Assembly (NCBI RefSeq): GCF_903064525.1
Contig: NZ_LR797830.1
Span: 310,001 to 374,000 of the forward strand
Source of the DNA: Methylacidimicrobium sp. AP8
GTDB lineage: Bacteria > Verrucomicrobiota > Verrucomicrobiia > Methylacidiphilales > Methylacidiphilaceae
Length of the DNA stretch: 64,000 nt
Reading direction: 5' to 3'
Positions 18,367 through 50,192 of this stretch are shown here, piece after piece (the first letter of the stretch is position 1; every line of letters starts with the position of its first letter). Both the position numbers and the translations under genes were made by a program. The notes under the pieces were generated by a model. The model made no database searches. It was given only the letters and a program-made list of their open reading frames with translations, and was not told the origin of the DNA.

Positions 18367-18380
18367 GGCACGGACCCTAG

Positions 18381-18558
18381 CGGCCAATTCTCACAAGCTT
18401 TCTCCGACGGCTTGCAAAACGGGCTCGTCTGCTTGGCTCCCGCTTGGTTTTCCATCCTCGCAGTATGTCTTCATACAGCTCCGGTGGAAAACCTGCGCCC
18501 GCCTTGCACCCAAGCCCATTTGCGGCGCCTCGGCTACGAAACTTGGGAGAAATGGCCG
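18381..18558. repeat. Palindromic MITE-like element, copy A
   Basis: A 178-base imperfect palindrome bounded by CTAG on both sides (18377-18380 and 18559-18562). Left and right arms (about 70 bases each) are recognisable inverted copies: one reads CGGCCAATTCTCACAAG, and the other, on the opposite strand, CGGCCATTTCTCCCAAG. The centre forms a hairpin from GGTTTTCCATC and GGTGGAAAACC. A second copy is at 48414-48613 and a single arm at 41364-41400. The ends resemble the terminal repeat of the neighbouring IS1380-family element. It may also serve as a transcription end for leuS. Confidence 0.85.
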
Positions 18559-18788
18559 CTAGCCCCCATTTCTCACCAGTACGAGCTTTCGCGCGAGAGA
18601 GGTGCCGGTTGAGTCGCTTGCGAGCAGTTCCGGCCGCGCAGAGCTCTTCGTGAGGCAGGATCGAGCAAGATTTTCATTCGATTTGCCTTAACGCGAGCGC
18701 TGCAAAGCGCAAAAAGCCGGTTGTGGAGCAAGGCTCCGCCCGATCGTAGGCTTTGCGGAAGGAGAAGAGGTGGGGTTTTGATACCTGC

Positions 18789-20138
18789 TCAGCAACGCAG
18801 CACTCGGAAGACGTGGGTAAAGAGGCTCTTCCAAGGATAGGCGCTGCTCATCGAGAGGAAGACGCGGCGGACGCTGACTCGGACCAGCGTGCCGATCTTA
18901 AAGAGCTTGAGCCGTAGGGTGTCGACCTGGGCCTCGGCCCAGTCCGTTCCTCGCAGACCGAGCCGTCGCAGCGCTTCGACCAGGGTGTAAGCAAGAGCCG
19001 AGAAGTAGAGGCGAAGTTGGTTGCTGGCCATTTGCGCGGTCGAGAGCCGGTCGGCAAAGAGGTGGAGTTGTTCCTTGATCCGATTCTCCATGTCGCCACG
19101 AGCACAGTAGAGCTTCTCGTAAAGGTTTTGGGCGGGCCACTCCTCGGTGGAGAGAGAGGTCACGACAAAGCGCGGATTCTCCCCTTTCCAGGTACTCGGC
19201 TTTGGCGACCACCCGGCGCTCCCTCGACCAGCTGCTCAAGGTGCGGTAGGCAAACTCGGTAAAGAAGCGGGCCGGCTTGCCACTCGACTCGTGCAGACGA
19301 CGGGCTTGCTCCATCGACCCCCCTGAATGGTCCGGCACAAGCGCTCGTTGCGCGCCAAGCCGAAGAGGTAGTCGACTTGATTGGCTTCGCACCAAGCCAT
19401 GATCTCTTCCCGGCAGAAGCCCGAATCGGCCCGGAGCACGATCCGGACTCCGGGCCAACGGGTACGGAGTTGTTCCACGATCCGGCTCACCTCCGTAAGG
19501 GAGCCCGCCGACGCATCCTGGTTCGATGGCCGAAGCCGGACGCCAAGGAGTTGATCGCCAGCAAAGATGTAGAGCGGCAAATAGCAGTAGGAGTCGTAGT
19601 AACCATGGAAGAAGCGCTCCGGCTGATGTCCGTAAAGGGGGATGTCGGTCGCATCCAGATCGAGCACCACCTCCTCAGGGGGCTGGGGATGCGATTGGAG
19701 GTAGAGATCGACCAGAAGACGGTCGATCGCTTCGGCCGAGTAGTCGATCTTGTGGTAGCGCTCGCTTCGACCCACCAGTTCCAGCCGGTTGAGCGTGCTC
19801 TTGCCCGCCAGATCCTCTTCCAGATCGCTTTTCCCGCTCAGGAGAGCAACCAACGGATCGGTCCGCAACTGCTCATGGTCGTTGAGGTCTTCGTAGCCCA
19901 TCGCAATCCCGAAAATGCGCTGGGCAAGCATCTCCCGTACCCGATGCACAATGCGTTTCGGATGGCGTCGATCCACGAAGCAACCCTCTAACCGTCTTAA
20001 CAAACCGATCTTCCGATCCGCTTCCCGCAACAGAATTGCGCCCCCATCGCTGGAGATCCGACCCGCGGTAAATCCCGCTTCCACCCGTCGCGAAAAATGA
20101 TCTGTAAACGCAAAAGTCTCTTGGCTACACTCTGTCAT
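18789..20138 (-). pseudogene. IS1380-family transposase with two frameshifts
   Basis: Three reading frames together rebuild one transposase. The first (from ATG 20138) covers the N-terminal part, including GRISSDGGAILLREADRK, DLDATDIPLYG and the RADSGFCRE segment. After a run of six G (plus-strand C run at 19318-19323) the sequence continues in another frame with EQARRLHESSGKPARFF, and near 19180-19195 it shifts again to the C-terminal PRFVVTSLS, YCARGDMENRIKEQ and NQLRLYFSALAY. The order and content match intact IS1380 transposases, so this is a single broken gene. A sequencing error or frameshifting at the G run cannot be excluded. Confidence 0.85.
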
Positions 20139-20212
20139 GGAAGGCCGTTTCTTTTTCCTGGTTGTAGTAACGTCTTCTTAACGCACTTATACCAGGGAAA
20201 GACGGCCTTTCC
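20139..20212. repeat. Inverted repeat upstream of the IS1380 transposase
   Basis: Arms at 20139-20162 and 20191-20212 pair imperfectly (GGAAGGCCGT against ACGGCCTTTCC, with T-rich interiors). The structure sits just before the transposase ATG and partly persists in the remnant at 41086-41465. Such hairpins in insertion sequences can shield the transposase gene from outside transcription; that role is inferred. Confidence 0.6.
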
Positions 20213-20305
20213 TATGCCCTTTTGCCGGATTTTTTGCCTTCCGCTATGCCTGCCATTGGTGAGAAATCGGGGCTAGGCGGGAGAGGCGGACTCGGCCCCC
20301 TCCGA

Positions 20306-39915: not shown

Positions 39916-41085
39916 ATGCCTGCGGCGAAGACGGCTTGTCCGGATCGGTTGCCGCACCGGGTCGCTGGGAAAAGGCGAGGCGGGGTGCGTGCGGCCGCTC
40001 TGCTTTTCCTGGCGGCAGTTCCCGTCAGCGGTCGGGCCGGCGGAATACACCTGGATCGTGACGACCCCGCGAACGCGGCGATTGTCCGGATAGTTACCTA
40101 TCAATCCGTCGCCGGCGGCATCGTCCGGGTTACCGGAACCGGCTTTTTCGTCAATCGCCAGGGGCAACTGATCACCAATCGGCATCTGCTCTCTCGAGCG
40201 CTCTTTTCCGCCGCGCTGGGACCCGGATGCGAACCTTTCCGCGTCGATCGGGTTCTGGCGGAGGCGGGGGACTTGGTCATGGTGCAAATCGCGCTTCCCT
40301 CCGGAATTCGGCCGCCATGCCTGGAGCTAAGGAAGGAACCCCCCGTTCCGGGCGAACCGATCCGTATCGAAGGGTATCCTCTGGGAGTAGGCCTCGCCTC
40401 GGCATGGGGGAAGGTGGTCGGCTATCGGCAGAAACCCTATTATGGGACCCGTTCCTTCGAGGTAGACGCTCCGACCTTTTCGGGGAATAGCGGAGGTCCA
40501 ATCGTCGACGAGCGCGGACAGGTCGTGGGTGTGACGACGTTTCGTTCCCAGGAGGGATCGAGCAGGCTCGCCGGCGCCCTTTGCCCGCATGTCCTTATGG
40601 AAGAGAGCCGCGTCATCGATCTCCCGTTCGCCGTCTGGTCTCGGCGATCCGGAGGCGCGGATGGAGCGATCGGTTCGGCCGCCAGAGGGTGGAGAGCGCT
40701 GCAATCCGGAGAGAGCGAGCCGGCATGCCGCTATTTCCAAGCGGCACTCCGCAAGCGGGGGCGCAGCCCTTTGCTCCATCAGGGATTGGCCGAGGCGCTG
40801 CTGGAAAGCGGAAGGGTCGGGGAAGCCGCTTCGTCTCTCTGCGCCGCGATCAAAGAGAGACCGAACGATTTTCTCGCTCACCTTCGTCTTGCCGCTGTCT
40901 ACCGCCGGCTCGGGAAGCCCGAGCTCGCTGCCGTCCAGGAAGCCGCCGGCCGGAGGCTCGAGGGAGCGATCTTCGCGCGGATCCAGACGGCGGTGGCAGC
41001 CAGAGAGCAGACCGGTCTAGCCGGTCTCTGGCAAAAGGTACGCTACATCCTCCAGCCTCCGGTCGAGTCCGAACCCTCGCATTAG
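39916..41085 (+). CDS. Secreted trypsin-like serine protease with TPR C-terminus
   Basis: A protein of 389 residues. After a basic segment there is a signal-like stretch (AAALLFLAAVPVSGRAGG), then a trypsin/HtrA-type domain with all three catalytic residues: His in LITNRHLL, Asp in EAGDLVMVQ, Ser in GNSGGP. The last 130 residues look like tetratricopeptide helices (ALLESGRVGEAASSL, LAAVYRRLGKPELAAV). GTG 39985 is an alternative start. The 250 bases after galE hold no gene I recognise. The stop codon TAG coincides with the edge of the IS remnant at 41086. Confidence 0.75.
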   Translation: MPAAKTACPDRLPHRVAGKRRGGVRAAALLFLAAVPVSGRAGGIHLDRDDPANAAIVRIVTYQSVAGGIVRVTGTGFFVNRQGQLITNRHLLSRALFSAALGPGCEPFRVDRVLAEAGDLVMVQIALPSGIRPPCLELRKEPPVPGEPIRIEGYPLGVGLASAWGKVVGYRQKPYYGTRSFEVDAPTFSGNSGGPIVDERGQVVGVTTFRSQEGSSRLAGALCPHVLMEESRVIDLPFAVWSRRSGGADGAIGSAARGWRALQSGESEPACRYFQAALRKRGRSPLLHQGLAEALLESGRVGEAASSLCAAIKERPNDFLAHLRLAAVYRRLGKPELAAVQEAAGRRLEGAIFARIQTAVAAREQTGLAGLWQKVRYILQPPVESEPSH

Positions 41086-41465
41086 CCTGCATGTCTCACC
41101 GATAGCGGGCATAGCGGAAGGCAAAACATCCGGCAAAACGGCTTAGGAAAGGCCGCCTTCTGCTGGCATGCGTGTTGTCAAGACGGTACTTCCACCAGAG
41201 AAAAGAAACGGCCATCCCTGACAGAGTGTAGCCAAGAGACGTTTGCCTTTAGCGGCCATTTTTCGTGACCGGGGGAGGAAGTGGGGATTTGCCGCGGGTC
41301 GGATCTCCAGCGATGGGGGTGCAATCCTCTTGCGGGAAGCCGATCGGAAGATCGGTTGGTTAACGGCCATTTCTCACAAATTTCGTAGCCGAGACGCCGC
41401 CCGAAGCGTGTTGTCCATCGGCGACCGGAGATGCTGGCCCACCGCCTCTTTCGGGATTGGGAGGT
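41086..41465 (+). mobile_element. Degraded IS1380-family left end
   Basis: Matches the 5' end of the IS1380 element at 18563-20272. The remnant starts with a decayed terminal repeat (ATGTCTCACCGAT) after TTAG, retains CATAGCGGAAGGCAAAA and a damaged form of the internal hairpin, and still codes for the transposase N-terminus (GRISSDGGAILLREADRK, with stop and shifts elsewhere). After a 37-base interruption at 41364-41400 it resumes with CGGGATTGG and fades out near 41465. No intact gene remains. The bases up to rbfA at 41541 hold nothing recognisable. Confidence 0.8.
41364..41400. repeat. Single arm of the palindromic repeat, copy C
   Basis: The sequence CGGCCATTTCTCACAAATTT and the following GTAGCCGAGACGCCGC match one arm of the palindromic element at 18381-18558 and 48414-48613. 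Here it lies inside an IS1380 remnant, replacing about 35 bases of the element, as if produced by recombination between the two repeat types. Confidence 0.7.
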
Positions 41466-46255: not shown

Positions 46256-47160
46256 TCGGGGTTGGCCATATCGGACGTCACCACGCCCGCATTTGCGCGG
46301 ATCTCCCCCAGGCCAGGCTTGCCGGGGTTTTCGATATTGATGCGCAGCGATGCCGGGAAGTGGCGGAACGTTATCGCACCGAGGCGTTTGATTCCCTGGA
46401 GGCTCTTGCGGCCAGATGCCAAGCGGTGACGATCGCCACTCCCACCGGGACCCATTTTTCGGTTGCCGCCGCCTGCCTGGAGTCCGGGTGCCACGTGCTT
46501 GTGGAGAAGCCGATTGCGGATCGGGTGGAGCACGCGCGGGAGCTTGTCCGGATGGCCGGCGAGAAGGGCCTGCTCTTGCAAGTGGGCCATGTGGAACGGT
46601 TCAATCCCGCTTTCCGGGCGATGGAGCCGCTTTTGCGCGCGCCGCGGTTCATCGAAGCGCACCGCCTCTGTCCCTATCCGGGGAGAAACACCGAGATCGG
46701 CGTCGTCTTCGATTTGATGATCCACGATCTGGAAATCGTGCTCCATCTGGTTCCCGGGCCGGTTGTCTCGATCGATGCGGTCGGGGTGGCGGTCCTGAGC
46801 GCCACCGAGGACATTGCCAACGCCCGCATCCGGTTCGGGGGCGGAGCCGTTGCCAATCTGACCTGCAGCCGCATCAGCCCGGAAAAGATGCGGAAGATTC
46901 GGATCTTTCAGGAAGACGCGTACCTCTCCCTCAATTACGGCGAGCAGTGCGGCGAAATCTACCGGAAAAGAGACGGGCGGATCGAGCGGCAGCCGATTCC
47001 GGTCGAGAAGGATGAACCCCTTCGGCTTCAGCTCCGTTCATTCCTTGAATGCGTCCGCTCGCAGATGACGCCGGTCGTGGATGGGGGAAAGGGGGTTGCG
47101 GCTCTGGACTTGGCTATGCAGATTTCCGATCGCATCAGCCGGGGTATGGTGAGGACATGA
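46231..47160 (+). CDS. Gfo/Idh/MocA-family oxidoreductase
   Basis: A 309-residue NAD(P)-dependent sugar oxidoreductase: Rossmann motif GVGHIGRHHARI, ATPTGTHF, and the EKP triad of LVEKPIAD. It lies between lpxI and lpxB, overlapping both. In Acidithiobacillus-type lipid A synthesis a member of this family (GnnA) oxidises UDP-GlcNAc for a 3-amino sugar; a similar role is plausible from position, but the aminotransferase GnnB is not seen here. Confidence 0.85.
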   Translation: MQPIEIGVVGVGHIGRHHARICADLPQARLAGVFDIDAQRCREVAERYRTEAFDSLEALAARCQAVTIATPTGTHFSVAAACLESGCHVLVEKPIADRVEHARELVRMAGEKGLLLQVGHVERFNPAFRAMEPLLRAPRFIEAHRLCPYPGRNTEIGVVFDLMIHDLEIVLHLVPGPVVSIDAVGVAVLSATEDIANARIRFGGGAVANLTCSRISPEKMRKIRIFQEDAYLSLNYGEQCGEIYRKRDGRIERQPIPVEKDEPLRLQLRSFLECVRSQMTPVVDGGKGVAALDLAMQISDRISRGMVRT

Positions 47161-48617
47161 GGCGATCGCATCGCAGGAGAAAGATCTATCTGGTCGCCGG
47201 AGAGCCGAGCGGCGATACCCTCGGCGCGCTTTTGATCGAGGCCCTCCGGCGGCAGGACCCCGAGATCGTATGCCGCGGCGTCGGCGGCCCGAAGATGGCG
47301 GCCGCGGGCCAGCGGCAGACCGTCGACCTCACGGAGCACGCTGTCGTCGGCCTCGTGGAGGTGCTCCGTCATTATCGCGGGCTGCGGAAGCTCTTTCATC
47401 GCCTGCTGCGGGAAATCGAAGCGGCTCGCCCCGACGTGGTGGTGCTGATCGACTATCCCGGGTTCAACCTGCGTCTGGCTGCGGCCGTTCGTCGCCGATT
47501 GCCGAGCATCAAGCTGATCTATTACGTCAGTCCCCAGGTTTGGGCTTGGAAGCCCGGACGGGCCGAGCTTTTGTCGAAGACCGTCGATGAGCTTCTCGTC
47601 CTCTTCCCCTTCGAAGAGGAGTGGTATCGGCACCGGGGAATTCCGCTGACCGTCTCGTGCGTCGGTCACCCGCTCTGGGATCGCCTCCTGGTCAACCAGA
47701 GGCGGGAGCGGAAGCCGGGGGCGCCCATGACGATCGGGCTTTTGCCCGGCAGCCGGGAAAGTGAAATCGAGCGCCATCTTCCTCTCCTTCTGGAAACGGC
47801 AGCGGAGATGGACTGGCGGCGCGGCAACTTGGAATTTCTTTTGGTGACGCCCGATGCCCGCCGCGAAGCGTACGTCCGCCAGCAGTGGGCGGCTCGCGGG
47901 CCGGGCCCGGCGATCCGCCTGCGGGTCGGCTACGCCCTCTCCCACCTGGCCCGGTGCGACCTGGCGCTGCTCTGCTCCGGGTCGGCCTCGCTCGAATGCG
48001 CGGCGGTCGGAACCCCCCAGCTTCTCGTCTACAAGGCCAACCCCATCACCTATGCCGTGGCCAAGCGGGTGGTTCAGGTCCGCTATTTGAGCATCGTCAA
48101 CCTTTTGGCCGATGCGCCGGTCGTGCCGGAGCTCATCAGCGAAAAACTGACTTCCGGCGCGATCGCTGAGGCGGCCCTGCATCTTCTGGATCATCCGGAA
48201 GAACGCGCGGCGATGGTCCAAGCCATGCAAGCGGCGATTGAGCCGATCGCCCGGGCGGGGGCGAGCGCTCGGGCCGCGGCCCACGTCTTGGCGCTGGCCG
48301 ACCGGCCGTGCCAGGCCCGCGAGGCGGACGGATCGGCGGTGGGGCGTTTCCCGGGGAAGCGAACCCCGGAGGCGCTCGACGATTCTCGGGTCGGCAGCCT
48401 TGCTTCGGGAGGGCGGCCATCTCCGAAAAGCTTTCTCCTGCGGCTTGCCGAAAGGGCTCGTCTGTTTCGCTCCGGCTTGGTTTTCCATCCTCGCAGTGAG
48501 TCTTCTCATACGGCTGCGGTGGATTCATACAGCTCCGGTGGAAAACCAGCGCCCGGCCTCGCACCCAAGCCCATTTGCGGCGCCTCGGCTACGGAATTTG
48601 TGAGGAATGGCGGCTAG
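47157..48617 (+). CDS. lpxB: Lipid-A-disaccharide synthase with repeat-derived tail
   Basis: Joins lipid X and UDP-diacylglucosamine. The core shows AGEPSGDTLGA, the VGLVEVLRHY segment, YYVSPQVWAWKPGR, GLLPGSRESEIERHLP and NPITYAVAKR. The core ends near residue 385, as is usual for LpxB, but the frame continues to 486 residues. From about residue 420 the coding sequence is the palindromic repeat at 48414-48613, and the stop is the TAG of the CTAG next to the IS1182 element. Start ATG overlaps the preceding stop as ATGA. Confidence 0.9.
   Translation: MRRSHRRRKIYLVAGEPSGDTLGALLIEALRRQDPEIVCRGVGGPKMAAAGQRQTVDLTEHAVVGLVEVLRHYRGLRKLFHRLLREIEAARPDVVVLIDYPGFNLRLAAAVRRRLPSIKLIYYVSPQVWAWKPGRAELLSKTVDELLVLFPFEEEWYRHRGIPLTVSCVGHPLWDRLLVNQRRERKPGAPMTIGLLPGSRESEIERHLPLLLETAAEMDWRRGNLEFLLVTPDARREAYVRQQWAARGPGPAIRLRVGYALSHLARCDLALLCSGSASLECAAVGTPQLLVYKANPITYAVAKRVVQVRYLSIVNLLADAPVVPELISEKLTSGAIAEAALHLLDHPEERAAMVQAMQAAIEPIARAGASARAAAHVLALADRPCQAREADGSAVGRFPGKRTPEALDDSRVGSLASGGRPSPKSFLLRLAERARLFRSGLVFHPRSESSHTAAVDSYSSGGKPAPGLAPKPICGASATEFVRNGG
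48414..48613. repeat. Palindromic MITE-like element, copy B
   Basis: About 200 bases homologous to copy A at 18381-18558, including the GGTTTTCCATC / GGTGGAAAACC central hairpin (with some 22 extra loop bases) and the GCACCCAAGCCCATTTGCGG arm. The right end is followed by CTAG at 48614-48617, where the IS1182 element is inserted. The left flank is AGGG rather than CTAG. It lies within the 3' part of the lpxB frame. Confidence 0.85.
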
Positions 48618-50188
48618 CAGCCTGTCGGACTTTCCTTTTCCTTCTGGAATATGGTAAAAGAGGGCATGGCTGAGCGATTTGTGACGGTGGATCGGATGAC
48701 GCCGATGCTTTTGCCCGAGGACCTGCGAGATTGGGTGGAGGAGGACGACTTGGTGCATTTTGTCATCGAGGCGGTGGAGAGGATGGATCTGCGGGGCTTT
48801 CGGGTGAACGTACGCGGGACTGGGGACGCACAGTATCCGCCGTCGATGATGCTCTCGCTTTTGATTTATTGCTACGCCAACGGAATCTTTTCGAGTCGGA
48901 GGATTGAGGCAGCGACGCGGCGGGACGTGGCGGTGCGTTATCTTTGTGCGAACACCCATCCGGATCACGACACGATCTGCCGGTTTCGGCGGGAGAACTT
49001 TGCTGCGGTGGCGGACTGCTTTTTGAAGGTCTTGGAGTTGGCCCGGGAGATGAAGCTTTTGAAGGTCGGGGTGGTGAGTGTCGACGGGACGAAGATTCGG
49101 GCCAAGGCGAGCAAGCATCGGAATGTGACCTACGAGCGGGCCGGAGAACTGGTGGAGCTTTTGCGGGCGGATGTGGCAGATCTCTTGAAGAGGGCGGAGG
49201 AAGCGGACCGGAGAGAGGAAGCGGATCCGGGCAAGCTACCTGAGGAGATTGGTCGGCGGGAGCGGCTCCAGGCAAAGCTAGAGGAAGCGCAACGCCGACT
49301 GGAGGAACGGGCCAAGGAGCGAGCGGAGCGGGAGCGTGCGGATTACGAGCGGAAGGGAAAAGAACGGGAAGCTCGCAAGGGGAGTGCCAAAGGGCGGCAT
49401 ATCCACCCTCCGGAGGAGAAGCTTGGGGCGGAGGAGCAAAGCAAGCTGACCGATCCCGAGAGTCGGCTGATGCGCAAGAGTCGCAACGAAGCCTTTGAAC
49501 AGAGCTACAATGCGCAGGCGGCCGTGGATGCGGAAGGGAGTGCCTTGGTGCTTTCGGCTCGGGTGAGTGTGTGCGCCAACGATGCCGGCGAGTTGGAAGC
49601 CGACGTGCGGGCCATTCCTACGGAAGCCGGTCGGGTCCGTGCGGTGCTGGTAGACACGGGGTATGCCAATGGCGAACAGGTCGAGGCTCTGCAGGCGGAG
49701 GGAATCGAAGTCTACTGTCCGATGAGGGCTGAAGCTCTGGAATGCCGCCGGCGATACGAGTTCCGGCCCACCGATCGTCGACGGGAGAAGCCCGTGGAAT
49801 ATACCGCCCCGTGGAGACGCAAGATGGTTGAGAAGCTCGCCAGTCCGGAAGGCCGCCGCCTCTATGCTCGACGCAAGCAGACGGTCGAACCGGTCTTCGG
49901 CATCATCAAATCGGTAATGGGCTTCCGGGCGTTTCGGCTCCGCGGGCAAGCCAAAGTCCAGGGCGAATGGTCCTTGGTCTGCTTGGCGTACAACTTCAAG
50001 CGACTTTGGAAGCTTGGGGGAGCCCGCAAGCCCGGTTCCCTTCCGATTGGATCCCTATGGTCGCTCTCCGCCGGAAAAACGGTCGTCGCATTGTCTTGGT
50101 TTTTAGGGTTCCCGAGACAATCGCTCCCCATGCCGCATCGGACCGTCGCCGCATCGTGGCAAACTCTCGTACTAAGGCCGACAGGCTG
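48618..50188 (+). mobile_element. IS1182-family insertion sequence
   Basis: An intact-looking element of 1571 bases with terminal inverted repeats. The left end is CAGCCTGTCGGAC and the right end, on the other strand, CAGCCTGTCGGCC. CTAG occurs on both sides (48614-48617 and 50189-50192), consistent with a target duplication of four bases. It carries one transposase gene. It is inserted at the end of palindromic repeat copy B. Confidence 0.9.
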
Positions 50189-50192
50189 CTAG
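48651..50192 (+). CDS. IS1182-family transposase
   Basis: A 513-residue DDE transposase, apparently intact. The N-terminal domain reads RFVTVDRMTPMLLPEDLRDW and the catalytic acids are visible in order: Asp of VVSVDGTKIRAKAS, Asp of AVLVDTGYANGEQ, and Glu of KQTVEPVFGIIK. A charged coiled-coil insertion of about 100 residues (EERAKERAERERADYE) separates the first two. The stop TAG is supplied by the CTAG duplication just outside the element. Confidence 0.93.
   Translation: MVKEGMAERFVTVDRMTPMLLPEDLRDWVEEDDLVHFVIEAVERMDLRGFRVNVRGTGDAQYPPSMMLSLLIYCYANGIFSSRRIEAATRRDVAVRYLCANTHPDHDTICRFRRENFAAVADCFLKVLELAREMKLLKVGVVSVDGTKIRAKASKHRNVTYERAGELVELLRADVADLLKRAEEADRREEADPGKLPEEIGRRERLQAKLEEAQRRLEERAKERAERERADYERKGKEREARKGSAKGRHIHPPEEKLGAEEQSKLTDPESRLMRKSRNEAFEQSYNAQAAVDAEGSALVLSARVSVCANDAGELEADVRAIPTEAGRVRAVLVDTGYANGEQVEALQAEGIEVYCPMRAEALECRRRYEFRPTDRRREKPVEYTAPWRRKMVEKLASPEGRRLYARRKQTVEPVFGIIKSVMGFRAFRLRGQAKVQGEWSLVCLAYNFKRLWKLGGARKPGSLPIGSLWSLSAGKTVVALSWFLGFPRQSLPMPHRTVAASWQTLVLRPTGC

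Follow-up and report, generated by a model that had tools for sequence, protein, structure and literature searches.

A palindromic MITE family of Methylacidimicrobium sp. AP8 and its probable mobilisation by IS1380-family transposase

Copy A is a palindromic element in the window, which here means the whole 64,000-nucleotide stretch that we analysed (positions 310001-374000 of a single 2,300,970-bp contig). We estimate at about 0.91 the probability that copy A belongs to a multi-copy MITE family moved in trans by an intact IS1380 transposase with duplication of a YTAR target. The initial annotation had proposed a non-autonomous MITE mobilised by IS1380, and the copies, their duplications, the empty sites in relatives, and the ends and target common to both elements all supported this proposal. 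The G+C content of the window was 64%, and the 2.3-Mb genome contained two PF02461 (AMO/pmoA) genes, features that point to a verrucomicrobial methanotroph.

Copy A, its family and the duplicated target

The order at copy A was CTAG-MITE-CTAG-IS1380-CTAG, so that the right CTAG of copy A doubled as a CTAG of the IS1380 (Table 1). Copy A had been described as a 178-base imperfect palindrome with CTAG on both sides, and its coordinates proved exact. Folding agreed with the palindrome: the RNA of the consensus copy had a folding energy of -91.5 kcal/mol (z = -9.4) and the DNA of copy A one of -52.6 kcal/mol (z = -8.0). None of 200 shuffles did as well in either case, and in both folds the strand folded back over its entire length. 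At 178 bp the element has the short length of a MITE (< ~500 bp) and is too small to hold a transposase gene. A search of Rfam with the MITE gave no match to a curated RNA family at E <= 1.

Table 1 Coordinates of the MITE copies, insertion sequences and target sites in the window
Feature	Position	Strand	Remarks
Left target-site duplication of copy A	18377..18380	.	CTAG
MITE copy A	18381..18558	+	Imperfect palindrome, 178 bp; 96.8% to consensus copy L007
Left terminal inverted repeat of copy A	18381..18396	+	CGGCCAATTCTCACAA (consensus CGGCCATTTCTCACAA)
Right terminal inverted repeat of copy A	18543..18558	-	CGGCCATTTCTCCCAA on the minus strand
Target site common to copy A and the neighbouring IS1380	18559..18562	.	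CTAG
IS1380-family IS	18563..20272	-	1710 bp; ends CCCCCATTTCTCACCA / CCCCGATTTCTCACCA; transposase frameshifted; PF13701 E = 3.2e-90
Split transposase ORFs of this IS1380	19236-20138 and 18898-19458
Right target-site duplication of this IS1380	20273..20276	.	CTAG
IS1380 remnant adjoining the MITE fragment	41083..41363	+	Opposite orientation to the full IS1380 of the window
Target of the MITE fragment	41360..41363	.	TTAA; matches IS1380 position 1435, unbroken in the intact IS
MITE end fragment	41364..41400	-	37 bp
MITE copy B	48414..48613	+	Diverged (82%), with ~21 bp inserted internally; left CTAG absent
Target site common to copy B and the IS1182-like IS	48614..48617	.	CTAG; also stop of the lpxB ORF
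IS1182-like IS	48618..50188	+	Ends CAGCCTGTCGG; PF01609/PF13751/PF05598
Duplication of the IS1182-like IS	50189-50192		CTAG

To collect the copies, we searched the genome with copy A, scanned it for the end-motif pattern and re-aligned the results. This gave 45 near-full copies, or 53 places when fragments were included; the end motif had 96 matches in the genome, and the reversed motif, used as control, had 0. The dispersal that the initial annotation had claimed, with a genome-wide search as its suggested check, was thus borne out by about 50 copies, far more than are visible in the window. Nine copies were letter-identical, which means that the family has spread recently. A plasmid search for the end pattern found no match, and a wider collection of genome contigs (possibly without this genome) gave three isolated and unrelated matches, as chance could produce.

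Both further copies listed by the initial annotation were indeed MITE sequence, but copy B had a CTAG on its right side only, and the other was a mere end fragment at a TTAA. The lpxB reading frame (window 47049-48617) continued through copy B to the TAG of its right CTAG, so its final ~67 residues are encoded by the MITE; LpxB matches in congeners stopped near residue 458-466. As for the fragment, the full-length IS1380 of the window ran unbroken across the TTAA of its position 1435, the point at which MITE sequence occurred at window position 41364 and genome position 409403. At both places (window 41360-41400 and locus L062 at 409403) the MITE was joined to this same TTAA of an IS1380 fragment, and the remaining part of the IS was absent.

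Two pairs of copies shared flanks. Those at 80927 and 802243 (L014 and L016) had a common 1.5-kb flank, 99.7% identical and beginning at CTAG, which is possibly another CTAG-targeting element; a Pfam search of its ORFs found no family. Those at 1324499 and 2197873 (L008 and L003) had a common left flank (1077 bp, 98.9%) and different right flanks, and the copy at 1324499 had the unmatched flanks CTAG/CTAA, which suggests recombination between MITE copies.

Identical 4-bp flanks stood on both sides of 34 of the 45 near-full copies (CTAG 20, TTAA 6, TTAG 3, CTAA 2, TTGA 1, TGAA 1, CTAT 1), and an exactly matched duplication was absent in the other 11. When right flanks were shuffled among copies, a mean of 14.3 matched, with a maximum of 24 in 100,000 trials, against the 34 observed. 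Positions beyond the 4 bp held at most 0.08 bits in the target logo; the information is therefore confined to the 4 bp, with the consensus YTAR. Tabulating the flanks, as had been suggested, corrected the earlier claim of a CTAG target in part: CTAG is the commonest target, but the true one is YTAR and includes TTAA, TTAG and CTAA. Copies lacking both CTAG and empty sites had been named as evidence against a MITE, and most non-CTAG copies in fact carried other matched YTAR-like duplications. CTAG itself is strongly under-represented in the window (37 occurrences in positions 1-64000 vs 211 expected from base composition).

IS1380 as the probable mobilising partner

By PF13701, 23 stretches of IS1380 transposase were present in the genome. 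At least 11 IS1380 copies were complete or nearly so from end to end, and four (L031-L034) had an intact transposase, a 462-aa ORF without stops. Their target duplications in the genome were CTAG, TTAG, CTAA, ATAG and TTAA, so the MITE has the 4-bp YTAR duplication of its probable partner. The left ends of IS1380 read CCCCC, CCGCC or CGGCC followed by ATTTCTCACCA. Two loci (L034 and L042) started with CGGCCATTTCTCACCA, which equals the MITE end CGGCCATTTCTCACAA in 15 of 16 bases with one base different, and the window IS1380 equalled it in 13 of 16; the resemblance of the ends that had been claimed therefore held at 13-15 of 16 bases across IS1380 copies.

An IS1380-like interior was sought in the MITE, and no convincing homology was found beyond the terminal ~16 bp. 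We therefore rejected an internal-deletion derivative of IS1380, as the MITE interior is not a remnant of the IS, and its unrelatedness implies that the MITE would be mobilised in trans. Since the window IS1380 is frameshifted, the transposase has to come from an intact copy elsewhere; the earlier naming of the IS1380 element as mobiliser is supported for the family, but the window copy itself is broken.

From these comparisons we infer that IS1380 transposase is the enzyme moving the MITE. In the proposed mechanism, transposase from intact copies would act in trans by binding the 16-bp MITE ends, and would join the MITE to a YTAR target, with the 4 bp becoming duplicated. Insertions that persist would be those tolerated by the host, chiefly intergenic ones or ones exactly on stop codons, where a CTAG or TTAA duplication would regenerate the stop.

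Relatives, gene context and rival explanations

The joined flanks of ten insertions were searched in six congeners and then aligned. At site 975431, five congeners aligned without a gap over 339 bp (334 in one); the site lies inside an ORF reading like an ACR3-type transporter (a name taken from the reading frame alone), and in this genome the MITE shifts that frame to a stop. Site 3981, inside a response-regulator-like ORF, was ungapped in four congeners, and at site 533727 G003 (89% identity) had just one CTAG. The empty-site comparison that had been recommended thus found orthologous sites without the insert, two of them within ORFs. Conserved positions across species had been named as the mark of a REP-like element, and the compared sites were empty in relatives.

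We searched 40 genomes for the MITE, namely this genome and 39 relatives (six congeners and 33 from outside the genus). Matches occurred in this genome and in G001, G003, G004 and G006, all of the same genus; the MITE was absent from congeners G002 and G005 and from all 33 genomes outside the genus. Among the 40 genomes searched, the family is confined to one genus. Congeners G001 and G005 had IS1380 with few MITEs or none. In G003 and G006, IS1380 ends CCGCCAT... accompanied type-1 MITE ends CCGCCATTTCTCACAA (CCGCCAT...). These two genomes also had a diverged type-2 subfamily (loci L181-L209) with CCTGCATGTCTCACAAG ends (CCTGC(A/C)TGTCTCACAAG) and YTAR flanks; many of its copies were decayed, and some were internally deleted to ~126 bp. 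When we looked in G003 and G006 for an autonomous element with type-2 ends, nothing but MITE copies and their fragments turned up.

Covariation was analysed over 39 aligned copies. RNAalifold gave a poor consensus on the free alignment and was replaced by counting the pairs of a hairpin taken from one copy. Over the 39 copies, 90.3% of cells were paired, and double-change cells numbered 88 vs 31.8 in shuffles and 13-20 in slid structures. Some covarying pairs lay far inward of the terminal repeats (columns 19/168, 36/147, 45/139 and 75/107). This pattern suggests selection on the hairpin, unproven because many of the double changes separate the two subfamilies and may reflect few events.

With crude gene calls (codon-usage scoring), 5 of 45 MITE copies lay inside predicted genes vs 147 of 307 background CTAG/TTAA/TTAG/CTAA sites (p = 9e-7). 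Thirteen of 45 overlapped a predicted stop codon (naive p = 3e-6), about 11 after correction: the cases at 855508 and 1543589 were dropped because the CTAG there is the stop of an abutting IS1182-like transposase. Against non-coding sites only, the excess was modest (11/38 vs 24/160, p = 0.04). Avoidance of gene interiors is the stronger signal, and with so modest an excess on stop codons, tolerance suffices to explain the positions, with no need of targeting. Since YTAR includes TAA and TAG, the ~11 copies exactly on a stop leave the gene intact. Comparison with orthologues bore out several of these stops. At 533727, the frame ended ...FAWKF-stop, and the orthologues had CTAG in G003, G006 and G002 and TAA in G001 and G005. 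The stop at 746517 was TGA and was conserved in three orthologues, and congeners had a stop at the place equivalent to 1624470. At 1400922, two convergent reading frames ended in one TTAA, and each retained its own copy after the insertion.

A bolder reading, which we consider doubtful, is that the family exploits a "stop-codon niche", that the whole hairpin is selected as terminator or transposition substrate, and that the new CTAGs are landing pads for other ISs. If the niche were real, CTAG and TTAA, being palindromic with TAG or TAA on both strands, would allow even a stop common to convergent genes to be duplicated with no gene damaged, and the hairpin would perhaps act as a terminator in both directions or as the substrate for transposition.

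Among rival explanations, another mobiliser has to be weighed because the IS1182-like element also uses CTAG, so CTAG alone does not identify the partner of the MITE. The transposase ORF of the window's IS1182-like element finished on the TAG of its duplication. Among the clean full copies of this element in the genome, six in number, five abutted a MITE or IS1380 at a common CTAG, which gives p ~ 2e-6 if ~5% of CTAGs lie at such places (an estimate from window density, in a post hoc comparison). Frequent abutment and CTAG duplications would fit mobilisation by this element or by another IS instead of IS1380, but the IS1182-like ends CAGCCTGTCGGACTT are unlike those of the MITE, with which IS1380 ends agree in 13-15 of 16 bases, and TTAA, TTAG and CTAA duplications were seen for MITE and IS1380 alike, which leaves such a partner highly improbable. 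CTAG is scarce in this genome, and its duplicated copies appear to act as landing pads on which other ISs insert. Another possibility is that the MITE-CTAG-IS1380 pair of the window moves together as a composite unit. Three MITEs, at 328381 (copy A), 469827 and 1939216, shared a CTAG with an abutting IS1380, but the junctions differed, with the MITE at the left end of the IS in two and at the right end in one, and the outer flanks differed too. As MITE and IS are each bordered by a YTAR of their own on either side, independent insertion into a pre-existing CTAG is simpler, and we regard a composite unit as very unlikely.

The copies might also be REP/BIME- or terminator-like palindromes held at conserved positions by function and not transposons at all. 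Such elements would account for a long and stable hairpin, for arms that covary over the subfamilies (the 88 double-change cells vs 31.8 in shuffles) and for the many copies between convergent genes or at stop codons. They would not account for duplications that vary from copy to copy yet match in pairs, for empty orthologous sites in congeners, for insertions within ORFs, or for the lack of the family in two congeners and every outgroup searched. On the duplications and empty sites we rejected this as the primary nature of the family, and it seems to us barely credible; the hairpin of a MITE moved by IS1380 could still have a secondary terminator role.

Known systems and significance

The IS1380-family elements (DDE_Tnp_1_4, PF13701) of this genome resemble the MITE in having ends of the kind CNNCCATTTCTCACMA and 4-bp YTAR duplications, but they are 1710 bp long with a gene, whereas the MITE is 178 bp and gene-less with no internal similarity. 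For IS1247, another member of the IS1380 family, the listed repeat is 5 bp long (PMC3281130), which makes the 4-bp YTAR a feature of the subgroup found here. MITEs are known from bacteria and archaea, for example in Haloquadratum (PMC3119063) and as TIMEs (PMC4133298). As here, these share their terminal inverted repeats and duplication with an autonomous element, whose transposase acts on them in trans, and an interior unrelated to the partner is usual for MITEs (PMC3119063). TIMEs are derived from Tn3 (PMC4133298), whereas here IS1380 is the partner and a single palindrome makes up the entire element. The family is new, and its kind, an IS-linked MITE, is already known; we found no description of an IS1380-linked MITE in the open-access literature searched, and we claim no priority.

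IS1380 transposases are described as distant prokaryotic relatives of the piggyBac superfamily, and piggyBac duplicates TTAA (PMC10140906). The likeness between the MITE and this eukaryotic element is that TTAA is used and is the second commonest MITE target; the difference is that CTAG is favoured here, with the consensus YTAR. If IS1380 is seen as a distant bacterial relative of piggyBac, the minimal 16-bp end and YTAR are useful for studying the chemistry.

The family offers a clean natural case of a recently active IS1380-linked MITE: its target is defined, empty sites are seen in relatives, and the partner still has intact transposases. Other ISs reuse the target duplications that it leaves, and a target that contains a stop lets dozens of transposon copies build up in a small, gene-dense genome with little damage.
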